A stretch of 27,699 bases of DNA from a virus. The notes under the pieces were generated by a model that was given only the letters and a program-made list of their open reading frames with translations, ran no database searches and had not been told where the DNA came from. Below are positions 6,426 to 23,128 of this stretch, in pieces (positions within the stretch are counted from its first letter, which is position 1; every line of letters begins with the position of its first letter). Where the stretch lies: the IMG/VR virus record IMGVR_UViG_3300006737_000145, positions 1 through 27,699 of that record, one strand, 5' to 3'. The position numbers and the translations under genes were made by a program.

Positions 6426-8252
6426 CTATTCCAAAAGTTTATCTAAATTCTCTTTTAGTGACTCTAGTTCTTCTTTAATTAAGTTACTTTTTGTGAAGGA
6501 TGGTTTTTTTAGAGTGTCCACATCAACACTATTCACTAGTTTTTCATAATTTGTACCATCTTCCATTAATTCATCTGGAACTTCATCATCACCCCCTGTT
6601 GCTGGCGGAGTCGATGGTGGGGTTGTCATCATATCGTCTCCACCTGTTTCTTCATCTGACTCTCCATCAGGTAAATCTTCTCCATCTGCGGCAACACCAT
6701 AAAGTTTATCCACTTTGTCAAAAACTCCGGTACTCTTTATTATTTCAGAAGTGTTTTCCATTTCTGCCGCTGCAGCTTTTTCCATTCTCTGTCTTTCTAG
6801 GTCTAAAAGAATATCATCGTCACTAAAACCTAAGATATTTTTCTTAGCCCAAGTCATAGAAGTTGCACCAAATCCATTTCCAGCGTCTGAAACTGAATCT
6901 CTATATAAAGCCACTTTTGATTGGAATTGTTCTATTTTTAACATTTCCGCCTGAGTAGAAGGATTATTTAATCTTAGAGTAAAATTCTCCAACTCATCTT
7001 CAAAACCTAAAATATAGAGATGTATTATTGCAATTTTATTTAATTCTTGGACCATAGATTGTTGAACTCTGTTAATTGTTCTAGCAAATCTAATATCTTG
7101 TAGTGCTAAATTTTTTCCTTCCCCTGCTGGTTCGTCAAATCCTAAAAATGGTTTAGGGATTCTTAATGCGGATAACATTTTTTTCTGTATATATTCTATG
7201 TCAGCGATTTGGTCTAAATTACCAGCTCCTGGTAACGTTTCAATTGGATTCGCTGCACCATCATTACGTACTGGAACAAAAAAGTCTTGGTCAACCGCTA
7301 AGGCGTTATACCTTAAATCTACCTGACCTGTGCTATTATCAACCGCATGAGTCCTCTTAAAATTATTAGCTATTTTTTGTACATATGCCTGTACGTCCTG
7401 ATCATCAATATTACCAACGTTAATCTTAAATACTCTTCTTTCTGGTGCCCTTGTTACACGATAAATCATCATCGCATCTTCTGATAATAATAATTGCTTC
7501 CAAATCCTACGTACTTTTTCTAATAAAGAAGTACCATAAGGTAATCTTCTATCATCTCCTAATAACCTAAAGTGAGCAACCTCCCAAGCGTTAAATGATA
7601 TTGATTTGTTTCTCCACTCAAACTTAATATTTTTATCTTTTTCTTCTTCTCCCTCAACACCATAAGTACCAGCTTTACGAGAAGTTAAATAACTACTTTC
7701 ATCCTTTCTCTCTATCTCAATATTGGGTAATTGTGAAGCCCCAATAATTCCTTGTTTAGGGTCTATTTTAAGATATACAAAATTATCACCATACTTACAT
7801 GTATTTCTAGTCCATGCTGGTAATACAGCATGTAAGTCCAAAATCTTGTGAAAAAGATTATCTAAAATATCTTTTATTCTACTAGAGTCGGATTCTACTG
7901 TTAAAAGTGTACCGCTCTCATCTGGAGTACAACTTTCTTCGGCGTAGATATCTAAAGCCGCGGCAATTTCCGGAGTAAACTCCATAGACTCGAAATCATA
8001 AAACGAGGCTAGACGAGTAGTTTCATAATATATTGCTTGGTTATAAAGTTCACTATCTACTTTATTCCATTGATTTTTTAGAAAAGCTGTTTGTTGTGCT
8101 TGAAGTTTTTCTTGGTCAAATTCAGCTTTAGATGGTGTTTTTAATATTATTTTACTAGGATCAACATTGTAGGTTGGTACATCTCTTCTCATAGCACCCG
8201 CACCAAATACTTGTTGTAATCTCTGATATATTGTTAAATTTTTATCGGCCAT
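6426..8252 (-). CDS. 20: Portal vertex protein, T4 gp20 family
   Basis: The 608-aa product matches the T4 gp20 portal family. This dodecameric ring sits at one vertex of the prohead, nucleates assembly, and is the channel and docking site for terminase. Family-like segments include AAALDIYAEE (98-107), NTCKYGDNFVYL (150-161), RVTRAPERRVFKINVGN (265-281) and YIQKKMLSALRIPKPFLGFD (354-373). It is longer than T4 gp20 (524 aa) because of an acidic, low-complexity C-terminus (about 515-608, rich in D, E, G and P). That tail ends in a charged helix with IKEELESLKENLDKLLE. It follows terminase directly. In T4 the tail genes 18 and 19 lie between them, so the tail genes are elsewhere in this genome. 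Confidence 0.93.
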   Translation of the reverse strand: MADKNLTIYQRLQQVFGAGAMRRDVPTYNVDPSKIILKTPSKAEFDQEKLQAQQTAFLKNQWNKVDSELYNQAIYYETTRLASFYDFESMEFTPEIAAALDIYAEESCTPDESGTLLTVESDSSRIKDILDNLFHKILDLHAVLPAWTRNTCKYGDNFVYLKIDPKQGIIGASQLPNIEIERKDESSYLTSRKAGTYGVEGEEEKDKNIKFEWRNKSISFNAWEVAHFRLLGDDRRLPYGTSLLEKVRRIWKQLLLSEDAMMIYRVTRAPERRVFKINVGNIDDQDVQAYVQKIANNFKRTHAVDNSTGQVDLRYNALAVDQDFFVPVRNDGAANPIETLPGAGNLDQIADIEYIQKKMLSALRIPKPFLGFDEPAGEGKNLALQDIRFARTINRVQQSMVQELNKIAIIHLYILGFEDELENFTLRLNNPSTQAEMLKIEQFQSKVALYRDSVSDAGNGFGATSMTWAKKNILGFSDDDILLDLERQRMEKAAAAEMENTSEIIKSTGVFDKVDKLYGVAADGEDLPDGESDEETGGDDMMTTPPSTPPATGGDDEVPDELMEDGTNYEKLVNSVDVDTLKKPSFTKSNLIKEELESLKENLDKLLE

Positions 8253-8319: not shown

Positions 8320-10080
8320 CTAATTACGTCTTCTTCCCATCATACCACCAAATAACCACCCATGTTCTCTATAAAGTTGTCCAGGATTGGGGTTCATCGG
8401 ACCAAAAGGATTCATAGGGTCTGGTATATTTCTCCTAGGAGTGTTTGGATTTGGATTATTAAATGATTGAGTCATTGACTGTTTTTCTTGTGCTGGTTTG
8501 ATTGAATTTATGTGTGGATTCTCTTTTTCTGAGGTCATCCAACTGTCTATCATCGCAGCGGTATGATTCCTATTTTTTTCAATTTCCTTAAATGTGGTAT
8601 TAGCCACATATAATCCCATACCTAACGCCCACAAAAGATCATCGTGATAACCTACCATATGGTCAGGTCTTCCATTTCTAAAAACAAAGGTTGTCATTTC
8701 GGCAATTGTTCTTTCAGATCTTATTTTTACTCTATTTGTCCTAACCGACTCTTCTAATTCACTAACAACTATCCTTCTATTAGAGTCAATATTAAAACCT
8801 GGGTTTTTATTTTTATCACCATTTGGATAATGAAGTTGCGAATAACCCATTTCCTTTAACTTTAAGGATGTCGGTAATCCTACCCCTCCTGTTATATCTA
8901 TTACAACATAAGCGTTATAACGATTACCTACTTGCCAAACATAATTCGCCAATTCGTCAGGTGGCATCTTTCCATAATATTCAGCAACTTGTTCCTCCCC
9001 CTCATCACTATCTAAACAAATAATACTAAAAGCACTGAAGTCGTCAGACTGTCCAGTAGACACATCAACTCCCATTACATACTTTTTACCGGGTTCAGGA
9101 TCTTTCCATATCCATAATTCTCTCTGGAATCCCTCTTTTCTTACTGGTTCTCTTTTATTTTCTTTTTCTTGTAGAGTTATCCACTCTTTATCAATAACAG
9201 TTTCACCTGAACCTAGAAAATCACAATTTATTTCTTGATTTACTAGTCGCATATTTCCGTTCATTTGTCTTATCATCTCCAAATACCACGGTGCTGTTGG
9301 GTTAAATCCATTTCTTACATATTCTGCATACTTTTCAAAATTTTGACTTTCATCATGTATGGTTTCCTCACCTTCTTTTTCCCATTTCAAATCCTTGTTA
9401 AACCTAGGGTCTTCATACCAACGCATTTCTACAATCTTAAAATCATTTTCTGCTTTTTTAGCACCATCATATGTAGTGTGATATATAGGATCGTACCCAT
9501 TTGGTGTGGATACTAAAATTGCGTCCCCACCTGTTGATAGTGAAGCTTGGCAAGCCGCCCAAACATCTTGTCCTCCTTCAATAAAGGCAGCCTCATCTAA
9601 AATTAATAAAGAAGGTGTATAACCCCTTAAAGCATCGGCAGAAGTTGCTACAGCTTTAATTTCACAACCATTAGTAAATCTTACGTGTTGTTTGGAATTA
9701 GTATCCCCAATATCAACAGAAACCCATTTAGGCAACTGAGAGTGAAATACCTTAGCCTTGTTTAAGAATTCCATTGCTGTTTCTCTTTTATTGGCTAATA
9801 TTAGAACCTTTTCTGGATTATCTGCGTGTGCAAAAGTCACTAACCAAGTAATATAAGCCGCCGTTAATGTAGATATACCAGCTTGTCTATATTTTAATAC
9901 TATGTTATAACGATTTTCCTTAAATGATTTTATTGCCTCTAATTGTTTAGGAAACGGCTCAAACTTTACGTAAGTTTGTTTTGTTTTGTCAAAAGTTTCT
10001 AGATAATTAGCAATGAAATATGCGGGGTCTGATTTACACTTAGCCCATAGCATTAAAGTCTCTAATTTCTTATTTTTCAT
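8320..10080 (-). CDS. 17: Terminase large subunit, T4 gp17 family
   Basis: This is the ATP-driven DNA packaging motor and headful nuclease. Counting from an ATG at 10092, the ATPase shows a deviant Walker A (KYRQAGIST, 67-75), Walker B with catalytic Glu (LLILDE, 162-167) and coupling motif VSTPNG (194-199). The RNase H-like nuclease has Asp343 (VMGVDVSTG), Asp399 (VVIDITGG) and Asp484/Asp485 (GYHDDLLWAL). The length, 586-590 aa, is close to T4 gp17 (610 aa). The C-terminus is Pro/Asn/Gly/Met-rich. I prefer the second Met (10080). It is preceded by GGGAG with 5-nt spacing, the only clear ribosome site in the window, and it lies 17 nt after the TATTTAT motif, as in other genes. The first Met would leave only 5 nt. 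No small terminase gene (gp16) is visible next to it. Confidence 0.95.
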   Translation of the reverse strand: MKNKKLETLMLWAKCKSDPAYFIANYLETFDKTKQTYVKFEPFPKQLEAIKSFKENRYNIVLKYRQAGISTLTAAYITWLVTFAHADNPEKVLILANKRETAMEFLNKAKVFHSQLPKWVSVDIGDTNSKQHVRFTNGCEIKAVATSADALRGYTPSLLILDEAAFIEGGQDVWAACQASLSTGGDAILVSTPNGYDPIYHTTYDGAKKAENDFKIVEMRWYEDPRFNKDLKWEKEGEETIHDESQNFEKYAEYVRNGFNPTAPWYLEMIRQMNGNMRLVNQEINCDFLGSGETVIDKEWITLQEKENKREPVRKEGFQRELWIWKDPEPGKKYVMGVDVSTGQSDDFSAFSIICLDSDEGEEQVAEYYGKMPPDELANYVWQVGNRYNAYVVIDITGGVGLPTSLKLKEMGYSQLHYPNGDKNKNPGFNIDSNRRIVVSELEESVRTNRVKIRSERTIAEMTTFVFRNGRPDHMVGYHDDLLWALGMGLYVANTTFKEIEKNRNHTAAMIDSWMTSEKENPHINSIKPAQEKQSMTQSFNNPNPNTPRRNIPDPMNPFGPMNPNPGQLYREHGWLFGGMMGRRRN

Positions 10081-10097
10081 CTTTTCTCCCATATACT

Positions 10098-14712: not shown

Positions 14713-15153
14713 TTATACTGGTAATCTATTCGCCCCTCTTGCTGGGATAACTACGTTTTGGAACGCTGGTGACCCTAGCACTTCTATTTTATTTTGAGTA
14801 CCTGTCCATATTGTATTACCTGACCCACTACCACAAGGATTACAATCGTAACACATTGCCATTACAGCTCCACCATTCCACCCTATAATGTCATAACCGG
14901 TAAAAGAGAAATCAAGAGTATCACCTATAGCGTTACCTACTGGTAGAACTACATTAGCACCACCTGTATCTTCTTGTTTTAATGTAACTGTTGCACTTGC
15001 CACTCTAGCGACTAATTTAGTACATGTCCACGCACTAAACGATCGTTGTGAGGTAGTACCGTTAACAGTAGACCCTGTTGTTAAAGCAACCAATTCTCCA
15101 ACTGGTATAGCTGTAGTTGGTATTCCTGAATTATAATTTGTTATTCCCGCCAT
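14713..15153 (-). CDS. Small Gly/Thr/Ala-rich beta protein, possible capsid decoration
   Basis: A 146-aa protein with the composition of an all-beta virion protein: rich in Gly, Thr, Ala, Val and Ser and almost without charge. Alternating hydrophobic strands such as KLVARVASATVTLKQ and NVVLPVGNAIG are visible. CYDCNPCGSGSG near residues 101-112 holds a CxxCxxC cluster on a flexible loop. It is preceded by TATTTAT 16 nt before the ATG, so it should be a late gene, and its upstream neighbour is the nucleotidyltransferase-like gene. I cannot assign a family; head decoration or a fibre-tip protein would fit the size and composition. Confidence 0.7.
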   Translation of the reverse strand: MAGITNYNSGIPTTAIPVGELVALTTGSTVNGTTSQRSFSAWTCTKLVARVASATVTLKQEDTGGANVVLPVGNAIGDTLDFSFTGYDIIGWNGGAVMAMCYDCNPCGSGSGNTIWTGTQNKIEVLGSPAFQNVVIPARGANRLPV

Positions 15154-15169
15154 TTTAATTGTTTATTAT

Positions 15170-15176
15170 ATAAATA
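15170..15176 (-). promoter_or_regulatory. TATTTAT motif before the 146-aa gene
   Basis: Coding-strand ATATTTATATAATAAAC holds TATTTAT exactly 16 nt before the ATG at 15153. Confidence 0.45.
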
Positions 15177-15179
15177 TGT

Positions 15180-15935
15180 TTATTTCTTGTTATATTCTTT
15201 TATTGTCATCTTTTCATCATATGAATCTTCTTTCATATCATTTAACCTTCCAATATAACCACTTCTTCTTAGAACTTTGAACACCAAATTCTCGATAGCA
15301 TACTCACCACCTTCTTCCAAACCAATACCTCTATACTTCTTTAGTTTTTCCTTAAGTTTGTCTACCATCTTAATAACTTTTTCATATTTAGATTTTTTAT
15401 ATAACTTTTCAATATTATCAATTTGTTTTGCCCAAGACTTTGATTTTTTATAAACCTCATTCTTATCAACATTTGCTTCTATTTGTTCAGGTTTGACTAT
15501 CCATTCGTCATTCATCACTGAATAAACTCCTGTCGATAAATGAGTTTCTCCTGCGTCTTGTGCATAAACTTCAACCTCATAATCCTTTATTGTAATATCG
15601 TGTCTGTTATTCCATATAGTTTTTTTCATACTAAAAAAATCTTCAACCAATTCATGATCGGCATCGATATCATCATAGTTAACAATTAAATGTAAATCGA
15701 AGTCAGAATATTTAGAATAATTGTAGTTTGAGAGACTACCCGTTAAAGTAACGTCTAGTAATGGGATATCTACTTTTATGAATTCAAAAAAATCTTCAGC
15801 GATTTCCATTAATCTTTCGCGTATTTCCGATTTCATAGTATAATTTTCACCATCTTTTTCCCAAACTTCTGGTGAAAGAGTATTACTAGTAATTGCGGTA
15901 CTTGAGGCCGCCTTCGTTAAATCTGTATTTTCCAT
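15180..15935 (-). CDS. Nucleotidyltransferase-fold protein (pol-beta superfamily)
   Basis: A 251-aa protein with the core signature of the DNA polymerase beta-like nucleotidyltransferase superfamily. Gly66-Ser67 (LTGSLSNYNYS) precedes SDFDLHL, with Asp78 and Asp80 as metal ligands. A likely third acidic residue is Glu122 on the EVEVYAQD strand. Residues 155-205 are Lys-rich and helical and may bind nucleic acid; the C-terminal helices end in TIKEYNKK. The superfamily transfers nucleotides to RNA, proteins or small molecules; the substrate here cannot be told. All three acidic positions are kept, so it is probably active. Two TATTTAT motifs precede it, and it lies among head genes, so expression late in infection is expected. 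Possible roles include RNA end repair or modification of a host target. Confidence 0.75.
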   Translation of the reverse strand: MENTDLTKAASSTAITSNTLSPEVWEKDGENYTMKSEIRERLMEIAEDFFEFIKVDIPLLDVTLTGSLSNYNYSKYSDFDLHLIVNYDDIDADHELVEDFFSMKKTIWNNRHDITIKDYEVEVYAQDAGETHLSTGVYSVMNDEWIVKPEQIEANVDKNEVYKKSKSWAKQIDNIEKLYKKSKYEKVIKMVDKLKEKLKKYRGIGLEEGGEYAIENLVFKVLRRSGYIGRLNDMKEDSYDEKMTIKEYNKK

Positions 15936-15940
15936 ATTAT

Positions 15941-15958
15941 ATAAATATTAAATAAATA
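15941..15958 (-). promoter_or_regulatory. Two TATTTAT motifs before the nucleotidyltransferase gene
   Basis: On the coding strand TATTTATTTAATATTTAT contains the motif at 15958-15952 (16 nt before the ATG) and at 15947-15941 (5 nt before it). The 16-nt copy has the common spacing. Confidence 0.45.
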
Positions 15959-15981
15959 CTTTAACAACTAGGTGGGGGTAA

Positions 15982-16326
15982 TTATTTAGGATTTGGATTT
16001 TCGGAATCTATTATACCATCAATTTTACTGTTTCTTTGCATCATTCTGTTTATAGACTCAACTAGTTTTTGAGTATCAACATCGGCAACTTTATTAGTTG
16101 TGAATTTATTCCTTATATGTCTATTAAGAAACTTACCTTGACTTTGGTCACGTTCAAATTGTTCAAAAATCTTTAGTGGGACATCTACATATCTGTAAAC
16201 TGCCCCTCGGTTAAAAACAATATCTAAATCTTTGGTTTTAACATGATAAATAGATTTGAGAATATTGGAGGACTTAAAATATGATTCTATTATATCTTTT
16301 TTATCTTTTACTTTTTTAATTAACAT
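15982..16326 (-). CDS. KTSC-domain protein
   Basis: A 114-aa protein whose residues 19-76 match the KTSC domain family (PF13619). The segments are SSNILKSIYHVKTKDLDIVF, NRGAVYRYVDVPLKIFEQF and SQGKFLNRHIRNKF. The family is small, widespread in phages and bacteria, and named for a Lys-Thr-Ser-Cys-like pattern; no biochemical role is settled, though nucleic-acid binding has been suggested. The N-terminus is basic (MLIKKVKDKKD), and the tail (LVESINRMMQRNSK) resembles the SRMHELM and TRMKSLW segments of other proteins here. It starts 3 nt after the 75-aa gene's stop, so the two are translated together. Confidence 0.75.
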   Translation of the reverse strand: MLIKKVKDKKDIIESYFKSSNILKSIYHVKTKDLDIVFNRGAVYRYVDVPLKIFEQFERDQSQGKFLNRHIRNKFTTNKVADVDTQKLVESINRMMQRNSKIDGIIDSENPNPK

Positions 16327-16329
16327 AGT

Positions 16330-16557
16330 TTATATTTTTTCTAAATTTGTTCGATAAGATTTTATCTTGTCTAAGTTATAAATGTCTCCTTCTTGATGTC
16401 CTTCTTTAAGTGATATTATAATTATAAAATTTCCCGATATTAACATAGCAGAATTTTCATAAGTTACTTTATGTTGACTTTGGGTCTCTGGAGATTTAAC
16501 AATCAACTCGATTTGTTTATATATTTTACTTTTATCTTTTGTAATAGGGTCTATCAT
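16330..16557 (-). CDS. Unknown 75-aa protein, first gene of the left minus-strand block
   Basis: Not recognised. It is a small protein with a strongly hydrophobic beta strand (MLISGNFIIIISLKEG) in the middle and basic ends. It lacks a clear membrane helix because the hydrophobic run is short and beta-branched. It is followed directly by the KTSC gene. Its ATG faces the ClpC-like gene across a 89-nt AT-only divergent region, so it probably opens the minus-strand transcript. A coding-strand TATTTAT (16604-16598) lies 40 nt upstream, farther than usual. Confidence 0.55.
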   Translation of the reverse strand: MIDPITKDKSKIYKQIELIVKSPETQSQHKVTYENSAMLISGNFIIIISLKEGHQEGDIYNLDKIKSYRTNLEKI

Positions 16558-16587
16558 GATTAAATATTTATTTAATAAAAAATAATA

Positions 16588-16621
16588 AAATTCTTTAATA
16601 AATAAATTCTTTATAAAGAAT
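16588..16621 (+). promoter_or_regulatory. Direct repeat plus 16-bp palindrome, candidate operator for clpC
   Basis: The divergent region holds AAATTCTTTA at 16588-16597 and again at 16604-16613. The second copy runs into a perfect 16-bp palindrome, ATTCTTTATAAAGAAT (16606-16621), ending 25 nt before the ClpC-like ATG. A dyad overlapping a direct repeat in a divergent promoter region is what a dimeric repressor or activator site looks like. No known regulator is recognised. Confidence 0.4.
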
Positions 16622-16646
16622 AGTTTTTTTAGTATATTTTAACCAT

Positions 16647-19100
16647 ATGAAAGAATTACACCCAATAAAAGAGATTATTAAGATAGGTTTAGACTCAGCC
16701 GCGAATTATAAGGCCGATTTTATTAGACCCATTCATCTTTTTGTCGGTCTTTTGAAACACCAAAGAAATGAAGCCTGTGAAGTTTTATTAAATATAGGTG
16801 TTGATCTAGATAGTGTGGGTAATCTTTTAGATGAGTTATTAACTATCGATGAGAATGAACGTACTCTTTCATATGTTATCCCCTTTACGACTGAGGCACA
16901 GTCTATATTAGATAGGGTGAATGATGAAAGAAAATTGTTAAAAGATAACAAAATAAACTCTCATCACCTCATGTTATCAATTTTATCCCAAAAAAGCTCG
17001 GGTATTTCACGTTTTTTGCTTAAATTTGGGGTTGAATATAAAACGTATAAAAAAGAACTATTAAGTATGAGTATGATGTATAATGAAGAGCCGTTTGGCC
17101 AAGAGGAACAATCCTCTCCAAAAAAGACTATAAAAGAATCAAGTAATACCCCTATATTAGATGCATTTAGTATTGATGTAACAGAAGAGGCCAAAAATGG
17201 TACTTTAGATAAAGTGATAGGTAGAGAAAAAGAAGTTGACCGTATCGCACAAATATTAAGTCGGAGAAAGAAAAACAATCCAGTATTAATAGGTGAACCT
17301 GGAGTTGGTAAGTCATCTATCGTTGATGGGTTAGCCACAAAAATTATTACAAAAAAATGCCCTAGACCATTAATGGGTAAAAGAGTAGTGGCTTTAGATT
17401 TAACATCTTTGGTAGCTGGTACTAAATATAGAGGACAGTTTGAGGAAAGAATTAAAGGTCTTTTGGATGAGGTAAGAGGAGATAAAGACATTATAATGTT
17501 TATTGATGAACTTCACACTATGGTGGGTGCGGGTAACTCTTCGGGTTCTATGGACGCTGCAAATATTTTGAAACCGGCACTCTCTAGAGGACAAATACAA
17601 TGTATTGGTGCCACAACTCTAGATGAATATAGAGAGCACATTGAAAAAGATGGAGCTTTAGAAAGAAGATTTCAAAAAGTAATGGTAGAACCACCTTCAA
17701 AAGAAGAAACCCTTACTATATTACATAATATAAAAAATACATATGAAGATTATCACAAAGTATCTTACACCGATGAGGCAATAAAAAAATGTGTTGAGTT
17801 ATCTGAAAGATATATTACTGATAGAAATTTTCCTGATAAAGCGATTGATGTATTGGATGAAGCTGGTGCTTGTGTCGCCGTAAACGCAAGACCTCCTAAA
17901 AAAATAGAGGTCACCGAAAAAAAATTAGGAAGTATAAAAGAAGAGAAGAATAGAGTAGTGATTTCCCAACAATATGAAAAAGCAGCTAATCTTAGAGATA
18001 AAGAAAAAAACCTAAAAACAGAATTAAAAAAATTAATTAAAGAGTGGGAAGTACAATTACAAAAAAATAGGTCTATTGTGGGTGAAGAAGAAATATTAGA
18101 TATAATTGCAACTTCCACAAACATACCAGTAACAAAACTTAATGAAGATGAATCAAAGAAATTATTAGAAATTGATTCTACACTACAAAGTGCTATAATT
18201 GGACAAGATCGAGCGATTACTAAAGTATGTAAAGCCCTTAGAAGAAATCGTGTTGGTATTAAAAATCCTAACAAACCTATAGGTAGTTTTATGTTTTTAG
18301 GACCAACTGGGGTTGGTAAAACTGAATTAGCTAAACAATTAGCAATGGAAGTTTTTGGTACCGAGGATAGTTTAATACGTGTAGACATGTCAGAATACGC
18401 TGAAAAATTTGCGGCAACTAAAATGATTGGTTCACCTCCAGGTTATGTTGGTTATAATGAAGGGGGACAGTTAACAGAAAAAGTAAGACGTAAACCATAT
18501 TCTTTAGTCCTTTTTGATGAGGTTGAAAAAGCCCATCCTGATATCTTTCACTCTTTACTACAACTACTAGATGAAGGTTTTATGACTGATGGTATGGGAA
18601 GAAAAGTAAATTTTAGAAATTGTCTAATTGTCATGACTTCAAATATTGGTATGAGAGAGGTTGAGGAATTTGGTGAAGGGGTTGGTTTTAGAACTTCCAA
18701 CACTAACGATGATTATGAGGAAAGAGTACAATCAATAATCGATAAAAACTTAAAAAAGAAATTTAATCCAGAATTTATTAATCGTCTTGATGATATTGTT
18801 ATCTTTAATAAACTAACTAAAAATAATATTGGTAATATTCTTGAGGTTCATTTAGGATTACTTAAAGATAGAATGGACGAAATGGGTTATAGTATAAAAG
18901 TTAACAAGAGCGCTAAAGATTTATTGGTTGAAAAAGGTTATAGTGAAAAGTATGGAGCTCGCCCTATGACTCGAGCAATTTCAAACTATCTAGAAGATGC
19001 AATAGCAGAAGAAATGTTAAAATCTAAAGTAAAAAAAGGTTCAAATCTTTCAATCAGCTATGATAAAAAAACAAATAAAATTAAAGTTAAAGTAAGTTAA
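16647..19100 (+). CDS. clpC: ClpC-like AAA+ unfoldase
   Basis: An 817-aa, full-length Clp ATPase. Order of parts: Clp N-domain repeats (about 1-140); AAA-1 with Walker A GEPGVGKS (216-223), Walker B IMFIDE (283-288) and arginine finger region LERRFQ (338-343); a short UVR-like middle helix pair (about 438-463, QQYEKAANLRDKEKNLK); AAA-2 with GPTGVGKT (552-559) and LVLFDE (620-625). Sensor TSNIG is at 664-668, and GARPM (770-774) lies in the C-terminal D2-small domain. The short middle domain makes it ClpC, not ClpB. Residues 679-681, VGF in EFGEGVGF, correspond to the loop that docks on ClpP, so it should feed substrates to host ClpP. Likely source is a Bacteroidota host. It is the only large plus-strand gene here. 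No ClpP gene is seen in the window. Confidence 0.95.
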   Translation: MKELHPIKEIIKIGLDSAANYKADFIRPIHLFVGLLKHQRNEACEVLLNIGVDLDSVGNLLDELLTIDENERTLSYVIPFTTEAQSILDRVNDERKLLKDNKINSHHLMLSILSQKSSGISRFLLKFGVEYKTYKKELLSMSMMYNEEPFGQEEQSSPKKTIKESSNTPILDAFSIDVTEEAKNGTLDKVIGREKEVDRIAQILSRRKKNNPVLIGEPGVGKSSIVDGLATKIITKKCPRPLMGKRVVALDLTSLVAGTKYRGQFEERIKGLLDEVRGDKDIIMFIDELHTMVGAGNSSGSMDAANILKPALSRGQIQCIGATTLDEYREHIEKDGALERRFQKVMVEPPSKEETLTILHNIKNTYEDYHKVSYTDEAIKKCVELSERYITDRNFPDKAIDVLDEAGACVAVNARPPKKIEVTEKKLGSIKEEKNRVVISQQYEKAANLRDKEKNLKTELKKLIKEWEVQLQKNRSIVGEEEILDIIATSTNIPVTKLNEDESKKLLEIDSTLQSAIIGQDRAITKVCKALRRNRVGIKNPNKPIGSFMFLGPTGVGKTELAKQLAMEVFGTEDSLIRVDMSEYAEKFAATKMIGSPPGYVGYNEGGQLTEKVRRKPYSLVLFDEVEKAHPDIFHSLLQLLDEGFMTDGMGRKVNFRNCLIVMTSNIGMREVEEFGEGVGFRTSNTNDDYEERVQSIIDKNLKKKFNPEFINRLDDIVIFNKLTKNNIGNILEVHLGLLKDRMDEMGYSIKVNKSAKDLLVEKGYSEKYGARPMTRAISNYLEDAIAEEMLKSKVKKGSNLSISYDKKTNKIKVKVS

Positions 19101-19146: not shown

Positions 19147-19692
19147 ATGGCTAAAACTATCGTAAAAAAGAAAGACCTTCAAAAATTAATCTCAGAATCC
19201 ATTAAAAAAGGTGCTAGATTAACAAAAAAGGTCCCTGCAATTAATACTGTGTATTTGAATGAAGAGATTAATAAAGTACATAATAAAATAAGAATTGCAA
19301 TTGTTAAAGAAGGTATAAGAAATCTAGATATAAGATCATATAAACCGGTTCTTTCTGAATCTTTTTACGGTACAGGTAGTAACCGTCATCACCCAGGAGA
19401 ATCTGCAGCGGCTGGATTAGAAGAAATTATAAAAGGACTTAAAAAAGCTTATGAAATGGTGAAAGATAACCAAACTGGTAAAATGATTGCTAATAGTATA
19501 GTTAGATTAAGTAACACCATGTCAGTTATCGGAACTTATATGGGATCAGGAAAATCTCAAAGAGGTGTAGATGATTAATGTTTATATAGTCAATTAAGTG
19601 ACATTCCTTATCCTGATGTTGAGGCGGCTGAAGAGGGAGATGAAAAAGCAGTAGAAAGAATGCAAAAATCATTCTTAAAAGGAATGGAATAA
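19147..19692 (+). pseudogene. Small tagged protein with an in-frame TAA (nonsense or read-through)
   Basis: The first 143 codons (19147-19578) encode a basic helical protein of unknown family. It starts with MAKTIVKKKDLQKLISESIK, a leader with ISE at 15-17, and has a second LSE near residue 71 and a GSNRHHPGESAAAGLEEI segment. A TAA stops it at 19576-19578 after GKSQRGVDD. The same frame then runs on for 37 codons with protein-like sequence (LYSQLSDIPYPDVEAAEEGD, then KAVERMQKSFLKGME) to a TAA at 19690-19692. The terminator begins only 20 nt later. No ATG opens this tail early enough to make it a separate gene. Either the gene carries a recent nonsense mutation or sequencing error, or the TAA is read through to make a longer form. 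If the stop is real the product is the 143-aa form. Confidence 0.65.
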
Positions 19693-20061: not shown

Positions 20062-20688
20062 ATGGATAAAAAGACTTTTAGAATAATACTATCACTTTCA
20101 TTATTGGGGTGTCTGTTATATTATACGATGACTCTTTCACAAAAGTTTCAATCAAAAGTAGAAAATTTAAGAGAAGATTTAGAAAACACAAAACAAGAAT
20201 TCTATTGTACGATAGATAGTATAAATCAGATATACCAAAGTGCTTTAGATTCTCTACCTCTGGGTTCCCCTCTCGACACAATTTTAATTTCTTCTAATTA
20301 TGGAATTAGGAAAGGTCCTTTAGGTGGGGGATGGAGAATGCATTCTGGTATTGATCTAAAAGGAACGATGTGGGACACAGTCTACGCAACAGGGAGTGGA
20401 TTTATAAGTATGGCTGGGTGGAACGCTGGATATGGTAACTGTGTAAAAATTGACCATATAGAAGGGTATTCGAGTAAGTACGCTCACCTATCTAGAATGT
20501 TTGTAAAAAAAGGAGATTTTGTAATTAAAGGATCCCCTTTAGGGAAATGTGGGAGTACGGGTGCGAGTACAGGTCAACACCTACACTATGAAATAAATAT
20601 TAATGGAAAAACTGTCGATCCCTATCTATTCTTGCTCTTTGATTCTATTCTTAAGGACAGCAATAATACCTTGTTGGAAATTCAATAA
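20062..20688 (+). CDS. Membrane-anchored M23 (LytM-type) peptidase
   Basis: A 208-aa protein. Residues 7-24 form an N-terminal membrane anchor (RIILSLSLLGCLLYYTM), 25-62 a coiled coil, and about 70-190 an M23 zinc endopeptidase domain. All metal and catalytic residues are visible: His94 and Asp98 (RMHSGIDLKG), His142 (YAHLSRMF), and His173 and His175 (GQHLHYEI). The family cuts peptide cross-links in peptidoglycan. With the anchor in the inner membrane, the domain would lie in the periplasm, so a role in lysis or in remodelling the wall is expected. This layout is closer to host cell-division or lysis peptidases than to tail lysozymes. Its last 63 nt overlap the 3' end of the convergent DHH gene. 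Flavobacterial proteins of similar plan are common. Confidence 0.88.
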   Translation: MDKKTFRIILSLSLLGCLLYYTMTLSQKFQSKVENLREDLENTKQEFYCTIDSINQIYQSALDSLPLGSPLDTILISSNYGIRKGPLGGGWRMHSGIDLKGTMWDTVYATGSGFISMAGWNAGYGNCVKIDHIEGYSSKYAHLSRMFVKKGDFVIKGSPLGKCGSTGASTGQHLHYEININGKTVDPYLFLLFDSILKDSNNTLLEIQ

Positions 20689-22029: not shown

Positions 22030-22061
22030 ATAAAGATAAATATCTCATACTTTATCTTTAT
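22030..22061 (-). promoter_or_regulatory. 11-bp AT-only inverted repeat at the DHH start, with TATTTAT motif
   Basis: ATAAAGATAAA (22030-22040) is the exact inverse of TTTATCTTTAT (22051-22061), with a 10-nt loop. The left arm ends right before the DHH ATG, the right arm covers the glutamine synthetase stop codon, and TATTTAT (22042-22036) lies inside, 6 nt before the ATG. A T run follows on the plus strand. It could be an operator, a translation-blocking hairpin or a weak plus-strand terminator facing the M23 transcript. Confidence 0.5.
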
Positions 22062-23128
22062 TTTTTAAGCTCTAAACATTCTTGTTTTTTCTTAGTAGTT
22101 AAAGCTGAAGAAACGTTTGAGACTAACTTTTCTAAAATTAAATATGGGTCTCCATTACTAGCCGGTCTTCTATCTTCTAAATAACCTCTCCAGTTATTTT
22201 TTACTGTTGAAATTGGAATCCTTATACTGGACCCTCTATCACTCACTCCATAACTAAACTTATCTATGGATTGTGTTTCGTGTAATCCGGTTAACCTTTT
22301 TTCATTATCATTACCATAAACCTCGATATGTTCTTGGTGATAAAATCCTAAAGTGTCACAGATTGAGTTAAACATTTCTTCACCTCCTTTATCTCTAGTT
22401 TCTTTAGTTGAAAAATTAACATGCATTCCCGATCCGTTCCAATCTCCTTCTATTGGTTTCGGTTTTATATCAACAACTACCTGATATCTTTCCATTGTTT
22501 TAGTTAAAATATATCTAGAGAGTATTAAATCATCGGCAGCTTTAAGTGAGTCCTTTCCCATTAGTTGGTATTCCCATTGTCCTATCATAACTTCCGCATT
22601 TATTCCCGTAATATCTAATCCGGCATCTAAACATAGGTCTAAGTGTTCTTCAACCACATCCCTACCTTCTATATTTTGTGAACCAATCCCACAGTAGAAT
22701 TCTCCTTGAGGTTTTGGGTAACCTAGTGTTGGAAATCCTAAAGGTTTACCTTGAATATTTGTTAATACGTATTCCTGCTCAAAACCAAACCAGAATTGGT
22801 GTTTTTTAGATAACTTACTTAATTCTCTTAATTTATGTCTAGTGTTACTTTCATGGGGAGTCCAGTCTGGGTTAAGTACCTCACATAAAACTAGGTATCC
22901 TTCTGGTCTAGTTGGATCTTTAATCATATACACTGGTTGTAGTAAACAATCCGAATTATCTCCTGTTGCTTGTTTTGTAGAGCTACCATCAAAGGACCAA
23001 ACTGGTAAATTCTCAACCTTTAACCCATCCTCCAACTCCTTACTGTCTAAAATTTTCGTTTTACTTCTTATGTTTTGTTCTGGGTTATAACCATCCAACC
23101 AAATATACTCTAGTTTAATTTTACTCAT
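22058..23128 (-). CDS. glnII: Glutamine synthetase type II
   Basis: A 356-aa enzyme making glutamine from glutamate, ammonia and ATP in the cytosol. It is type II (eukaryote-like, about 340-370 aa) rather than type I (about 470 aa). The beta-grasp domain covers about 1-100 and carries WSFDGSSTKQATGDNSD (44-60). The catalytic domain has FGFEQEYVL (114-122, with Glu117 and Glu119), INAEVMIGQWEYQ (176-188), DWNGSGMHVNF (229-239), RLTGLHETQSIDKFSYGVSD (278-297) with RGSSIRIP following, and EDRRPASNGDPY (318-329). No core motif is broken, so it should be active. It is a host-derived auxiliary metabolic gene, probably from a Bacteroidota cell, supplying nitrogen for nucleotide synthesis. It lies between phage genes on one strand and has a sigma70-like promoter. 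Confidence 0.95.
   Translation of the reverse strand: MSKIKLEYIWLDGYNPEQNIRSKTKILDSKELEDGLKVENLPVWSFDGSSTKQATGDNSDCLLQPVYMIKDPTRPEGYLVLCEVLNPDWTPHESNTRHKLRELSKLSKKHQFWFGFEQEYVLTNIQGKPLGFPTLGYPKPQGEFYCGIGSQNIEGRDVVEEHLDLCLDAGLDITGINAEVMIGQWEYQLMGKDSLKAADDLILSRYILTKTMERYQVVVDIKPKPIEGDWNGSGMHVNFSTKETRDKGGEEMFNSICDTLGFYHQEHIEVYGNDNEKRLTGLHETQSIDKFSYGVSDRGSSIRIPISTVKNNWRGYLEDRRPASNGDPYLILEKLVSNVSSALTTKKKQECLELKK

Follow-up and report, generated by a model that had tools for sequence, protein, structure and literature searches.

The window, the whole 27.7-kb stretch (27,699 nt) of DNA analysed here, is a piece of a larger genome and represents a fragment of a T4-like phage, with a T4-type portal (6426..8252, minus strand; PF07230, E 5e-77), a terminase large subunit (8320..10092, minus strand; PF03237, PHROG 2) and an S77 prohead protease. 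On the plus strand, an ORF at 16647..19100 begins with ATG, is uninterrupted by stops and encodes an 817-aa double-ring AAA+ unfoldase, identified as ClpC by sequence, tree and fold matches. The Pfam models Clp_N, AAA, AAA_lid_9, UVR, AAA_2 and ClpB_D2-small all match this protein. Its N-domain (residues 1-145; 16647..17081) consists of two Clp_N repeats (PF02861, with support from the alignment and from dN) and is followed by the D1 AAA+ ring and lid (17148..17876), in which Pfam and a motif check identified Walker A GEPGVGKS, pore loop KYRGQF, Walker B FIDE and the arginine finger ALERRF. A ClpC-type M-domain with a UVR motif (17916..18020; PF02151, E 1e-4, and linker length) precedes the D2 AAA+ ring (18144..18797; Pfam and motif check), which includes Walker A GPTGVGKT, pore loop GYVGY, Walker B FDE and FINRLD. 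The tripeptide VGF (residues 679-681; 18681..18689), recognised by its motif and by the conservation of [VILM]G[FY], occupies the ClpP-docking position, and the D2 small domain (18813..19052; PF10431) carries sensor 2, YGARP, at 18951-18965. All these features lie on the plus strand. Both rings thus retain Walker A/B, arginine fingers, pore loops and sensor 2, and the proposal of the sequence-only reading that this is a full ClpC with a ClpP-docking loop is borne out.

The assignment to ClpC rather than to a related unfoldase relies on several characters. The D1-D2 linker is 91 aa long, compared with 92-93 aa in ClpC and 153-156 aa in ClpB, and the protein combines an N-domain, two AAA+ rings and a short M-domain with a UVR motif, as expected of ClpC. 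It also groups with ClpC and not with ClpB in the tree. The top solved-structure match by sequence is ClpC (E 7e-226), from S. aureus and B. subtilis, and by fold, too, the best matches of the predicted structure are ClpC entries. Linker length, tree and docking loop together rule out a ClpB or ClpA identity; a ClpB disaggregase in particular would be expected to have an M-domain of about 120 aa and no docking loop. Confidence in the predicted structure is moderate (pLDDT 78.8, pTM 0.53) and the docking loop (678-683) is unreliable (pLDDT <50), so that the model says nothing on docking. Bacterial ClpCs of Bacteroidota, S. aureus and B. subtilis (PDB 9rai, 6em8, 3j3r) share its domain order, rings, M-domain length, docking loop and fold. 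The window protein differs from them in its separate viral clade, its 49-52% identity, its faster N-domain and its phage neighbourhood. The product is best explained as a functional ClpC unfoldase, with predicted adaptor control and ATP-driven unfolding.

The genomic place of clpC is conserved. A KTSC-domain gene (15982..16326, minus strand; PF13619) is its divergent neighbour in most phage clpC loci (66 hits), and a nucleotidyltransferase-like gene (15180..15935, minus strand; weak PF22600, PHROG 36119) is kept nearby (48 hits); this clpC-KTSC-nucleotidyltransferase arrangement recurs across phage loci, many of which have portal and terminase within about 10 kb of clpC. Directly downstream on the same strand, neighbourhood comparison identified a 143-aa ORF without family match (19147..19578, plus strand). 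It is 58-59% identical in relatives, adjoins clpC only in the window clade and is possibly a co-transcribed partner of clpC. In locus L003 (7340-9220, compared with window 14713-16647), proteins are 99-100% identical through the gene ending at 15153, and identity then falls to 57-81% over the nucleotidyltransferase, KTSC, clpC and 19147 genes, a drop that could reflect either a recombined clpC block or an assembly chimera. Further along, an M23 peptidase gene (20062-20688, plus strand), co-oriented with clpC, has a probable N-terminal membrane helix. A GlnII-type glutamine synthetase (22058-23128, minus strand), which matches NF041605 with an E of 1e-122, below that model's cut-off, is likely an auxiliary metabolic gene.

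The sequence TATTTAT is enriched 10-30 bp upstream of genes in the window and its 231-kb relative G001 taken together (54 occurrences versus 11.6 in shuffles). It precedes the portal, the terminase and ORF 19147, lies 82 bp before clpC and is possibly a phage promoter element; matches to the T4 late promoter TATAAATA were tested in the same way and were not enriched. Shine-Dalgarno sites at translation starts are few (4 versus 9 in shuffles), and positions -11 to -13 are A-rich. Such Shine-Dalgarno-poor, A-rich starts fit a Bacteroidota host.

In a maximum likelihood tree of the AAA region, the window protein falls within a phage-only clade of 28 rows (support 99/98). This clade adjoins Bacteroidota ClpC and is separated from Bacillota, cyanobacterial and actinobacterial ClpC (100/100), the ClpCs outside Bacteroidota being thinly sampled with five rows. 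Some phage ClpCs lacking the N-domain, among them those of two published huge phages, branch closer to Bacteroidota, and a topology uniting the window clade with Bacteroidota without other phages was rejected by the AU test. A search of genome contigs with the window ClpC alone gave no match; an alignment query recovered bacterial ClpCs, of which the nearest are all from Bacteroidota and only 49-52% identical. Pairwise dN/dS within the window clade is 0.03-0.09, with dS near saturation, indicating strong purifying selection. On this comparative evidence clpC has long been a viral gene, with an ancestry of the Bacteroidota type, and is no fresh host gain, because of the phage-only clade, the AU rejection, the low identity to bacterial proteins, the conserved place and the low dN/dS. 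The Bacteroidota-type ancestry suggested from sequence alone is therefore confirmed, since the phage clade roots with Bacteroidota ClpC, while a recent gain from the host is contradicted. The tree returned an ancient viral clade, as the sequence-only reading had envisaged as a result against host gain, but not one unrelated to host ClpC.

The same reading had reported that no ClpP gene is seen. This is true of the 27.7-kb window. The absence is probably a matter of the fragment's limits: gene order in the window matches that of the 42.5-68 kb region of G001 (most proteins are 66-94% identical, ClpC 85%), and G001 encodes two ClpP-fold proteins, at 5.5 kb and 228 kb, with clpC and clpP unlinked. 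The observation thus holds for the fragment and not for the lineage, as relatives encode one or two ClpPs. Both proteins of G001 have intact Ser-His-Asp triads. ClpP-A is canonical (best NCBIfam model PRK14514); ClpP-B is divergent, with the model for ClpP-related head maturation protease as its best match. In other phages its gene closely follows that of ClpP-A at nine loci, with no gene in between at eight of them. The resemblance of ClpP-B (L007:1321-1920) to head maturation proteases is found in a phage that already has an S77 prohead protease. In G001 the end of ClpP-A is overlapped by another gene (L006:2040-2525), whose product we take to be a cyclophilin-type peptidyl-prolyl isomerase; in seven other phages this gene follows ClpP-A at a distance of a few genes.

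Co-occurrence of the two components extends beyond these relatives. Scans with ClpP-A and ClpP-B found relatives in 582 and 61 viral contigs, respectively, and 41 large contigs were chosen through ClpP, 22 with canonical ClpP and 19 with divergent ClpP only. A ClpC-type AAA_2 unfoldase is encoded by 19 of the 22 and by none of the 19 (Fisher p 8e-9, a value inflated because the contigs are related). Contigs picked through ClpC or portal were added to lessen the bias of ClpP-based picking. Among the 14 of at least 200 kb, canonical ClpP is present in 11 (G046, G048, G049, G050, G056, G057, G061, G086, W01, W02 and W04), divergent ClpP alone in two and neither in one (G055); clpC occurs in 12/18 contigs picked by portal alone, most of them short fragments. 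The contigs compared are mostly incomplete metagenomic assemblies. ClpP was not found in three sizeable and possibly incomplete clpC contigs, G055 (385 kb), G052 (165 kb) and G054 (156 kb), nor was clpC found in the ClpP-bearing contigs G007, G008 and G016.

The docking interface is conserved on the ClpC side and altered on the ClpP side. The motif [VILM]G[FY] is retained in nearly all of 71 phage ClpCs, with or without an N-domain, and is lost in ClpB; the VGF of the window protein is the tripeptide of most Bacteroidota ClpCs. In phage ClpP-A, the pocket positions L48 and Y62 are changed to M and H, respectively, each in 30/36 sequences, whereas Bacteroidota ClpP has L48 in 20/20 and Y62 in 19/20 sequences. 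Pocket positions are numbered on what we take to be the E. coli ClpP sequence, and Y62 presumably corresponds to Y63 of S. aureus ClpP. The Y63A variant of the latter is constitutively active (PMC9035409). In ClpP-B, pocket positions 82 and 92 hold polar residues, a sign in this low-identity alignment that the protein may be unable to dock the VGF loop.

The N-domain of the window clade outpaces the AAA part in its rate of change by a factor of two to three (dN 0.18-0.32 versus 0.09-0.10 between the window and its relatives). It is kept in this clade and lost in many phage cousins, and its H30 is invariant in the alignment. An unusual N-domain had been proposed earlier with ADFIRPIHLFVG as an example. 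The faster change agrees with that proposal. ADFIRPIHLFVG itself is the Clp_N repeat motif, with IGTEHLLLG as its bacterial counterpart, and the 'RP' at this place is shared with some other phage ClpCs. Rapid divergence of this domain would agree with a changed choice of substrate or adaptor. Genes for the ClpS adaptor were noted in phages W01, G057, G051 and G055 (L440, L441, L442 and L443) and in W02. These ClpS proteins keep the NDD and VHF/VHY pocket residues, and the ClpCs of the same phages lack the N-domain, the usual ClpS docking site. No ClpS was found in G001, so that a ClpS-driven N-end-rule pathway is unsupported for the window clade.

Taken together, these data point most probably to a functional ClpC, long inherited in a group of large T4-like phages probably infecting Bacteroidota, that docks a ClpP of the same phage to form a viral ClpCP. 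The VGF loop would contact ClpP-A, the closest relatives of the window phage having ClpP-B as a second paralog, and the missing part of the window phage genome would carry clpP. The phage would then probably bring a whole protease and not just borrow host ClpP. Such a viral ClpCP could unfold and then degrade chosen proteins in the infected cell. Candidate targets are host regulators, defence proteins and misfolded virion proteins, and recycling of amino acids is a further possible role. The redirection of host ClpP to phage-chosen substrates, favoured by the sequence-only reading, is no longer the leading interpretation because relatives encode their own ClpP. In favour of docking on the host enzyme, VGF is shared with most Bacteroidota ClpCs, the normal pocket of Bacteroidota ClpP would be able to pair with it, and SPO1 Gp53 offers a precedent for phage reprogramming of host ClpCP (PMC6873191). 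Against this, canonical phage ClpP co-occurs with phage ClpC, and the L48 to M and Y62 to H changes in ClpP-A would be expected if a viral pair had co-adapted; we regard host docking as unlikely.

Somewhat less probable still is a role for ClpC without a peptidase, in which it would unfold or disaggregate proteins during virion assembly and the docking loop would be a relic. This was the other use proposed from sequence alone, and it draws on the proximity of clpC to portal and terminase, on the clpC contigs without ClpP and on the assembly roles proposed for phage ClpA/ClpX in a review of jumbo phages (PMC7824862). It is weakened by the near-universal [VILM]G[FY] in phage ClpCs: a tripeptide known for ClpP binding has been kept across deep divergence, the M-domain is ClpC-like and not ClpB-like, and ClpP co-occurs. 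Recent acquisition of clpC from a host is rejected by the tree and the AU test. Its arrival by transduction as a possibly dispensable host gene, to which the exclusively Bacteroidota identity of the closest bacterial ClpCs might lend some colour, is accordingly very hard to credit given also the 49-52% maximum identity to the bacterial ClpCs found, the conserved genomic place and the low dN/dS. The preferred reading, a viral ClpCP, could be carried further, and here we are tentative: a host-orthogonal enzyme in large Bacteroidota phages might pair viral ClpC with pocket-altered ClpP-A and be used in host takeover or anti-defence. In some lineages it might include ClpP-B in a mixed two-subunit peptidase of which only the A ring docks ClpC, or a viral ClpS.

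Clp components in phages are of a known kind, given several precedents. Moraphages, large aquatic phages with predicted Bacteroidota hosts, have a 'Clp protease ATP-binding subunit ClpA' as a core gene (Arch Virol 2025, PMC12619734). Compared by description, they resemble the window in portal, prohead protease and, in some, glutamine synthetase; their gene is labelled ClpA, and the accessible part of that article gave no ClpP partner, docking loop or phylogeny. The Agrobacterium jumbo phage Atu_ph07 encodes ClpX, ClpA, ClpB, ClpP and ClpS (PMC6102473) and, like the window lineage, combines an unfoldase with ClpP, although it belongs to another phage lineage and its unfoldase is ClpA-type. The SPO1 protein Gp53 exemplifies phage control of ClpCP proteolysis, as proposed here, but is an adaptor for host ClpCP and no unfoldase (PMC6873191). 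The jumbo-phage review names ClpP, ClpS and ClpA separately (PMC7824862), Clp is absent from the main text of a paper on huge phages (PMC7162821), and we found no paper on ClpC in phages with auxiliary metabolic genes. Scattered phage Clp genes and phage hijacking of host ClpCP were therefore already known; the present analysis adds the identification as ClpC, its pairing with canonical ClpP, its conserved genomic place and a comparison of the interface. The two enzymes, unfoldase and peptidase, appear to form a linked viral trait of long standing whose docking interface is conserved, and a virus-run regulated protease, and what it destroys, become testable questions. Vibrio phage 2.275.O (MG592671), with Vibrio cyclitrophicus as recorded host, is a possible laboratory model. 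It encodes a ClpA-like unfoldase, Clp protease genes and ClpS. Unlike the window protein, its unfoldase is ClpA-like (34% identical) and its host gammaproteobacterial; as in the window, the unfoldase gene is opposite in strand to its late-gene neighbours.
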